Source: Phytohabitans rumicis (lineage in GTDB: Bacteria; Actinomycetota; Actinomycetes; Mycobacteriales; Micromonosporaceae). From it: DNA of 64,000 bases. The DNA lies in assembly GCF_011764445.1 (NCBI RefSeq), contig NZ_BLPG01000001.1:6713001-6777000 (forward strand), in the 5' to 3' direction. Numbering within the stretch: the first letter of the stretch is position 1; each line of letters starts with the position of its first letter. The translations under genes were made by a program, and so were the position numbers. This document shows positions 48,205-48,472 of this stretch, in pieces. Under the pieces are notes generated by a model, which was given only the letters and a program-made list of their open reading frames with translations, ran no database searches and was not told where the DNA came from.

Positions 48205-48279
48205 GGTTTTGGGGGCAGGAGTGCCCTGCGAAGCCCGTCAGGCTTGATGTCTTCGCAGGTCACTCCTGCCCCCAAAACC
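48205..48279. ncRNA. nested hairpin element 1 of the whiA-gap spacer
   Basis: 19-bp perfect outer stem (48205-48223 with 48261-48279), CCC and GGT spacers, 7-bp inner stem TGCGAAG/CTTCGCA (48227-48233 with 48251-48257) and 17-nt loop CCCGTCAGGCTTGATGT. The same loop and spacers occur in reverse complement at 48400-48472, where both stems differ but stay paired. It is either a structured RNA, a terminator after whiA or a mobile DNA element; typed as RNA with low certainty. Confidence 0.5.
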
Positions 48280-48304
48280 TGACGTGGGCACCGTCCGCAG
48301 GGAG

Positions 48305-48360
48305 AGTTACGGCTCGGGAGTCACCTGGAAGCACAGGGTGACCCATGGTTCGGCGTAACT
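48305..48360. promoter_or_regulatory. branched hairpin between the two nested elements
   Basis: AGTTACG (48305-48311) pairs with CGTAACT (48354-48360), and GTCACC (48320-48325) with GGTGAC (48337-48342), extended by GG/CC. With elements 1 and 2 this fills most of the 359-bp gap between whiA and gap; no coding sequence is seen there. Confidence 0.4.
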
Positions 48361-48399
48361 GTGCAAGCCGTTACCAGCACTCCTCGCTGGACCAGGTCG

Positions 48400-48472
48400 G
48401 GATCCGGGCCGGGGGTGACCGGCGGAGACATCAAGCCTGACGGGCTCCGCCGGGCACCCCCGGCCCGGATCC
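48400..48472. ncRNA. nested hairpin element 2 of the whiA-gap spacer (inverted relative to element 1)
   Basis: 18-bp perfect outer stem (48400-48417 with 48455-48472), ACC and GGG spacers, inner stem GGCGGAG/CTCCGCC (48421-48427 with 48445-48451), loop ACATCAAGCCTGACGGG. Read on the minus strand it equals element 1 in loop and spacers, while two of the seven inner pairs change together (T-A to G-C, A-T to G-C). It ends 81 bp before gap. Confidence 0.5.

Follow-up and report, generated by a model that had tools for sequence, protein, structure and literature searches.

The gap between whiA and gap in Phytohabitans rumicis contains two long hairpins that face in opposite directions and carry the same 17 nt loop on stems of different sequence, and this raises the question of what kind of element they are and on which molecule, RNA or DNA, they act. 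The window analysed here is the 64,000 nt stretch of contig NZ_BLPG01000001.1 in which the two hairpins lie.

The hairpins between whiA and gap

The features of the region, in window coordinates, are as follows.

47214–48194, + strand: whiA, the upstream neighbour (Pfam WhiA domains)
48205–48279, + strand: hairpin E1, with the loop CCCGTCAGGCTTGATGT on the + strand, 11 nt past the whiA stop codon and in the sense of whiA
48234–48250, + strand: the 17 nt loop of E1
48280–48399: spacer between E1 and E2; in most full-length copies in the genome a further palindrome occupies this place (by eye)
48390–48398: GACCAGGTC, adjoining the foot of E2 (read by eye)
48400–48472, − strand: hairpin E2, with the loop of E1 on the − strand, antisense to whiA and gap
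48428–48444, − strand: the 17 nt loop of E2
48554–49558, + strand: gap (glyceraldehyde-3-phosphate dehydrogenase), the downstream neighbour (Pfam Gp_dh domains)

The preliminary description of this DNA had reported the pair with its common loop and opposite orientation, and both hairpins are confirmed at these positions. The arms of E1 (29 nt) are 97% complementary and those of E2 (28 nt) are 96% complementary, and together the hairpins form a 61 nt inverted repeat with 84% complementarity, its arms 133 nt apart. The compensated changes that had been described in the inner stem between E1 and E2 are present, as is the CCC/GGT spacer, but the latter contains a single C.T mismatch, which is also seen in 16 of 26 relatives (columns 24/60). 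When the loop-bearing strands are folded as RNA the z scores are −10.8 for E1 and −11.4 for E2, and none of 200 shuffles folds as well. There is no third copy of the loop within the window, even with three mismatches allowed, and two such matches are also found in one of 100 shuffles of the window. The motif GACC[AT]GGTC is present at the position of GACCAGGTC in other copies and in L191, a hairpin of a relative described below (by eye).

The window also holds other long palindromes. A second family of near-perfect examples, of terminator or REP type and with arms like CGTCGATCAAGGGC...GCCCTTGATCGACG, is found at 11313–11377, 32420–32486, 42514–42610 and 51552–51616 (also 22812–22869), and other palindromes, whose arms begin with TGATCATGAAGTT or TGATCAGGGA, lie at 32557–32624, 42687–42743, 23158–23214 and 52423–52509.

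A hairpin family in the P. rumicis genome

The 10.7 Mb genome contains 26 exact copies of the loop and one with a single mismatch, whereas the reversed pattern is absent; two further loop matches with two mismatches are not reported as hairpins by a covariance-model search. This search, using model R1, finds 27 hairpins (54 matches, counting both strands of each palindrome), a number that is partly by construction because most of the 26 training sequences of the model come from this same genome. A weak R1 match at 32556–32625 of the window (E = 0.044) belongs to another palindrome and was rejected. Twenty-four of the 27 hairpins form 12 inverted pairs and three are single. All 12 pairs share a layout in which the first hairpin has the loop strand on the + strand and the second on the − strand, 84–225 nt apart, and the copies in the genome are alike; inspected by eye, their flanks are without a clear target-site duplication.

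We note that a third strong palindrome (GGAGTCCCCGCCGACCTTTACC...) is located halfway between the paired hairpins in full-length genome copies (L001 1582–1635, L006 1582–1636). Wide inverted pairs, 1.05–1.45 kb apart, are also seen (L150 1540–2607, L151 1531–2973, L152 1467–2536, L154 1501–3010), and their interiors have the look of low-complexity tandem repeats, with no gene recognisable in them.

Covarying stems and a constant loop core

A typical hairpin is approximately 75 nt long with a stem of approximately 27 bp, and has a median RNA folding energy of about −58 kcal/mol. Copies elsewhere pair as those in the window do. In an alignment of 26 hairpins (A1), 22 of 30 stem pairs have changes on both sides, and the 120 cells with such changes compare with 32.9 in shuffles and 9–36 when the 3' side is slid by one to three columns; the shuffles ignore relatedness, and the slid control therefore weighs more. 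Pairing is maintained in 93.9% of the cells, with G-U nearly absent (one cell). An alignment of 25 hairpins of a second loop class (A3) behaves similarly, with two-sided changes at 21 of 28 pairs (116 cells).

The 136 distinct hairpins fall into two loop classes of 53 and 83 members: class one has CCCGTCAGGCTTGATGT and variants of it, and class two has GGCGGTCAGGCTTGATCC between CTCC-G and CTGCG, with a conserved pyrimidine-mismatch pair. The core GTCAGGCTTGA, which is nearly palindromic, is exact in 120 of the 136, and the bases that face each other across it are G-C in 83, C-G in 35, C.A in 17 and G.G in one. Folding of four loop strands gives a UCA/UGA mini-stem with a GGCU tip within the loop. 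Three hairpins (L142 1503–1575, L168 4033–4106, L228 1630–1704) have a stem of the same type with very different loops of 22–24 nt, and a single stem design may carry several loop codes.

Distribution among actinobacteria

The exact 17 nt loop is present in six of 300 genomes of the family, P. rumicis included. With R1, hairpins are found in five of six genomes of its own genus (again including P. rumicis), the five congeners having 0–7 model matches, and in an Actinoplanes-type genus at least 37 of 60 sampled genomes have related hairpins; a second model, R2, matches at least 55 of 61 genomes of another genus of the same family, presumably Micromonospora. One palindrome may count on both strands in the per-genome match numbers of these genera. 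In a sample of the class, R1 matches three of 118 genomes (P. rumicis, G003 and G780), and the second loop class is found in just one of 396 genomes (G003) in a sample of the phylum. G780 belongs to an unrelated order, in which it is the only one of 60 genomes matched by R2; it has 15 copies, and none of the other 59 sampled genomes, nine of them from its own genus, reaches the threshold. Many of the G780 copies are arranged head to tail: at L254, L255, L257 and L258, two or three hairpins follow one gene in this way, 115–170 nt apart.

Among contigs of named genomes, 72 stretches match the loop, and seven of these have true stems (L046, L054, L060, L065, L076, L084 and L106); L058, with 9 of 12 pairs, and the rest were taken for chance. 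True hairpins were found in Winogradskya consettensis, Spirilliplanes yamanashiensis, Actinoplanes sp. NBRC 103695, A. palleronii and one actinobacterial metagenome-assembled genome. Five one-mismatch loop matches outside the family in the phylum sample were likewise taken for chance, because the reversed-pattern control gave three. A viral origin was considered and rejected: two loop scans of viral contigs gave six and 13 stretches, none with a real stem; two of the stretches have 13 of 22 pairs. In a plasmid collection one hairpin used as a query had no match, and the window pair had two weak ones, in Nonomuraea (without the loop) and Embleya (25 nt).

Position and orientation relative to genes

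Gene contexts were assigned to 167 distinct hairpins with a home-made GC-frame ORF caller, which can err; 85 lie in convergent gaps, 46 in codirectional and six in divergent ones, 30 are not classifiable, and just four are inside a predicted ORF. Because a hairpin in a convergent gap is always sense to one of the two genes, whichever way it faces, the test is which gene is nearer. The gene with the loop on its coding strand is the nearer one in 76 of the 85 gaps, in 45 of 49 with a single hairpin (median distances of 21 and 148 nt), and in 31 of 35 when hairpins with the same upstream gene are collapsed. Of the 46 codirectional hairpins, 32 have the loop on the coding strand. The hairpin lies a median of 21 nt past the stop codon in convergent gaps and 30.5 nt past it in codirectional gaps when in the sense orientation. 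The exceptions to the orientation rule are 14 of the 46 codirectional hairpins, the nine of 85 convergent hairpins that are nearer the wrong gene, and the six divergent ones.

Hairpins are also found behind 5S rRNA genes, where among the matches listed they have the rRNA sense in all eight cases, 88–106 nt away. Again among the matches listed, these follow five of six rrn copies in G171, two of six in G166 and one of two in G076; the 5S genes were located with Rfam on L164 and L162. None of the hairpin matches listed for P. rumicis, G142, G179, G189, G207 or G235 is near a 5S gene. A ZMP/ZTP riboswitch match lies downstream of the post-5S hairpin in G076 (L162 770–859, − strand). A link between the hairpins and transcription termini had been suggested in the preliminary description, and the placement at stop codons and behind 5S rRNA supports such a link.

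We scanned 20 neighbouring proteins, which are not a fair sample because they were picked, many for being common to several species. Eighteen have NCBIfam matches: acyl-CoA dehydrogenase, PhoU, phosphoglyceromutase, a PhoB/MtrA-like regulator, TypA, RelA/SpoT, a TatB-like protein, an Mrp-type ATPase, urease alpha, a Clp ATPase, UvrB, QcrB, NucS, ribosomal protein S1, methylmalonyl-CoA mutase, ClpP, RpoB and RpoC. The nineteenth is a cyclophilin by Pfam. The hairpin of G003 is between rpoB and rpoC.

Conservation at shared sites

Several gaps have a hairpin in at least two species, across species and genera. The gap between the RelA and cyclophilin genes has one in G142, G091 and G031, and the whiA–gap region has one in P. 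rumicis and G091. At six shared sites the hairpins are 77–97% identical, compared with 29–56% for the next 90 nt and 19–83% for the preceding 150 nt, and the hairpin is therefore either held by selection or homogenised between copies. Together with the covariation in A1 and A3, this constraint supports the earlier proposal of a structure selected as such.

In the whiA–gap region of G091 the place of E2 is filled by a hairpin of the other loop class (L191) and E1 is missing, so that E1 has been gained or lost since. E2 and L191 are antisense to whiA and gap alike, an arrangement that suits an insulator against antisense transcription more than a terminator.

Comparison with known elements

The hairpins resemble REP and REPIN elements in being interspersed intergenic palindromes, often in inverted pairs (24 of the 27 in P. 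rumicis), that are copy-rich in some genomes and few or absent in relatives. REP stems, as described in the accessible text of PMC3733652, are 5–13 bp long and bear a tag, GTAG or CGTC, at their foot, whereas here the stem is approximately 27 bp, variable, and carries a constant loop. The tag is not a feature of the family: in the 20 nt foot windows of 155 hairpins GTAG occurs seven times on the 5' side and eight on the 3' side, and CGTC four and 22 times, against a background in 310 windows of six for GTAG and 36 for CGTC. The association with a RAYT/TnpA-like transposase that had been raised for the window pair was not borne out, PF01797 (Y1 transposase) being absent from six of nine copy-rich genomes, namely P. 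rumicis, G780, G210, G204, G260 and G229; it is present in G288, G149 and G225, and also in three of 12 genomes without hairpin matches. A RAYT-driven REP was rejected because these transposases are missing from six of the nine genomes and no Rfam family (Rfam 15) matches the window at gathering score, and the foot tag is lacking as well.

Structured RNAs of the kind in Rfam are alike in having a constant loop on a covarying stem. A known RNA family was rejected, since at the loci of six relatives, searched at E values up to 5, the matches to the hairpins have low scores, all below gathering, and are to hairpin models, for the most part microRNA precursors, and the window has none at that score.

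The U-less and bidirectional terminators of GC-rich actinobacteria (HS-U-lack and Bi-TEPs), for which the available portion of PMC8269248 gives an optimum loop of 4–8 nt, are also similar: they are strong GC-rich hairpins just past a stop codon, without a U-tract and often between convergent genes. The hairpins here are likewise strong and close behind stop codons, and the 12 nt behind 167 of them have no U-rich tract (T 24%, A 10%, G 34%, C 32%). The difference is that the known loops are short and these are 17–18 nt and nearly invariant between genera. Six loop strings were not found in the searchable literature, which leaves out most subscription journals; topical searches there gave nothing on the element, and in the parts of the literature accessible we found no report of a U-less terminator with a constant loop. 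Pairing of the loop with rRNA was also considered and rejected: besides the hairpin, L164 offers no match of 9 nt or more within its rRNA genes, which comprise complete 23S and 5S and 159 nt of 16S. The nearest known kinds are REP/REPIN elements and U-less terminators, and on the literature searched the hairpins are an undescribed family of gene-end DNA elements in some actinobacteria.

A proposed role at transcript ends and its alternatives

We give an even chance to a reading, drawn from sequence, in which the family is a dispersed, strand-oriented gene-end element that acts on transcripts, as a 3' end or an insulator, with its loop read in trans. The nascent RNA would fold into the hairpin, which would fix the 3' end of the transcript either as a U-tract-less (I-shaped) terminator or as a block to exonucleases, and the loop, with its UCA/UGA mini-stem and GGCU tip, would be the address for a trans-acting factor such as an RNA-binding protein, an RNase or a termination factor. 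Where two genes converge, an inverted pair would provide one element per gene and keep the transcripts apart, and the family would also spread between and within genomes. The orientation bias, the post-5S placement, the covariation, the constraint at shared sites, the strong folding and the exchange of C-G and G-C across the loop argue for this. Against it are the lack of a U-tract, the reversed E2 and its G091 counterpart, the other exceptions to the orientation rule, the 30 of 167 hairpins without a classifiable context, and the hairpin that separates rpoB from rpoC, at which complete termination is unlikely; the loop of 17–18 nt is also long for a terminator relative to the 4–8 nt optimum in the portion of PMC8269248 cited above. 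The 17 bp kissing or cruciform contact earlier envisaged between the two loops cannot be general, because many hairpins stand head to tail or are single, 115 of the 167 having no inverted partner within 1.6 kb of fetched stretch.

A further point against the simplest form of this reading comes from the stem mismatches. In the inner 24 pairs of 136 hairpins, with conserved mismatch positions left out, the loop strand has 48 A.C and just five G.T mismatches (25 and five once the hairpins are collapsed to 23 clusters, p = 3e-4), whereas pairing within a loop-strand RNA would predict the opposite; the others are C.T or T.C (27) and C.C (four), with no G.G or T.T. Other palindromes give one A.C and no G.T, a control with one informative cell and too small. 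Either the other strand is selected as RNA, or G.T is purged from an extruded loop-strand hairpin. Under the former alternative the strand with the loop AUCAAGCCUGAC would be the active RNA, on which these mismatches become G.U and G.A, and it would end antisense transcripts that would otherwise enter the adjacent gene at its 3' end; E2 and L191 face that way relative to gap, and convergent gaps are the commonest. We regard this as improbable, in that folding is slightly stronger on the loop strand in 91 of 136 hairpins (median 0.9 kcal/mol), the mismatch control is so small, and the hairpins lie just past the stop codon. A gene's own terminator usually sits right behind its stop codon. The latter alternative, a DNA structure in which the loop strand is extruded as a cruciform and bound by protein while NucS removes G.T from the extruded stem, strikes us as very improbable. 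NucS prefers G-T, G-G and T-T and spares A-C, as given in the available text of PMC8228993, and this agrees with the mismatch spectrum; a NucS gene lies beside one hairpin. However, a cruciform extrudes both strands, so that only a strand-biased extrusion would fit, and RNA better explains the orientation behind stop codons.

A further alternative, which we consider possible yet doubtful, is a selfish origin. The hairpins would be non-autonomous mobile palindromes of REPIN-like layout that settle in gene-end gaps, with an enzyme that recognises the folded single strand keeping the loop constant, and copying of the hairpin keeping the stems paired. Copy number does vary strongly, as between P. 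rumicis and its five congeners or between G780 and the rest of its order; the copies within a genome are alike, as are the layouts of the 12 pairs, and the near absence of G-U is what upkeep of a palindrome at the DNA level would give. Set against this are the occupation of the same sites across species and genera, conserved while the DNA behind differs, the orientation bias toward the adjacent gene, and the pattern of PF01797, missing from six of the nine copy-rich genomes and present in some without hairpin matches. By eye, the four wide pairs contain no autonomous copy or transposase, and no target-site duplication is established in the flanks of the P. rumicis copies.

Implications

Taking the gene-end element acting on transcripts further, we tentatively propose a class of loop-addressed transcript-end or insulator elements, in which the stem may be any strong duplex and a loop of approximately 14 nt, C[CG]GTCAGGCTTGAT, may be the code for a dedicated factor. 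Such elements would serve genes for rRNA, RNA polymerase, ribosomal proteins and the stringent response, and their cassette would be able to reach unrelated actinobacteria and multiply there. Should the family instead be mobile, its palindromes would do without the RAYT enzyme that accompanies REPs. How transcripts are ended in the absence of U-tracts is an unsettled question for GC-rich actinobacteria, and the family, with 27 copies in one genome and many sites common to species, provides natural replicates in which the stem is varied and the loop kept, so that sequence addressing of a terminator-like hairpin is directly testable.
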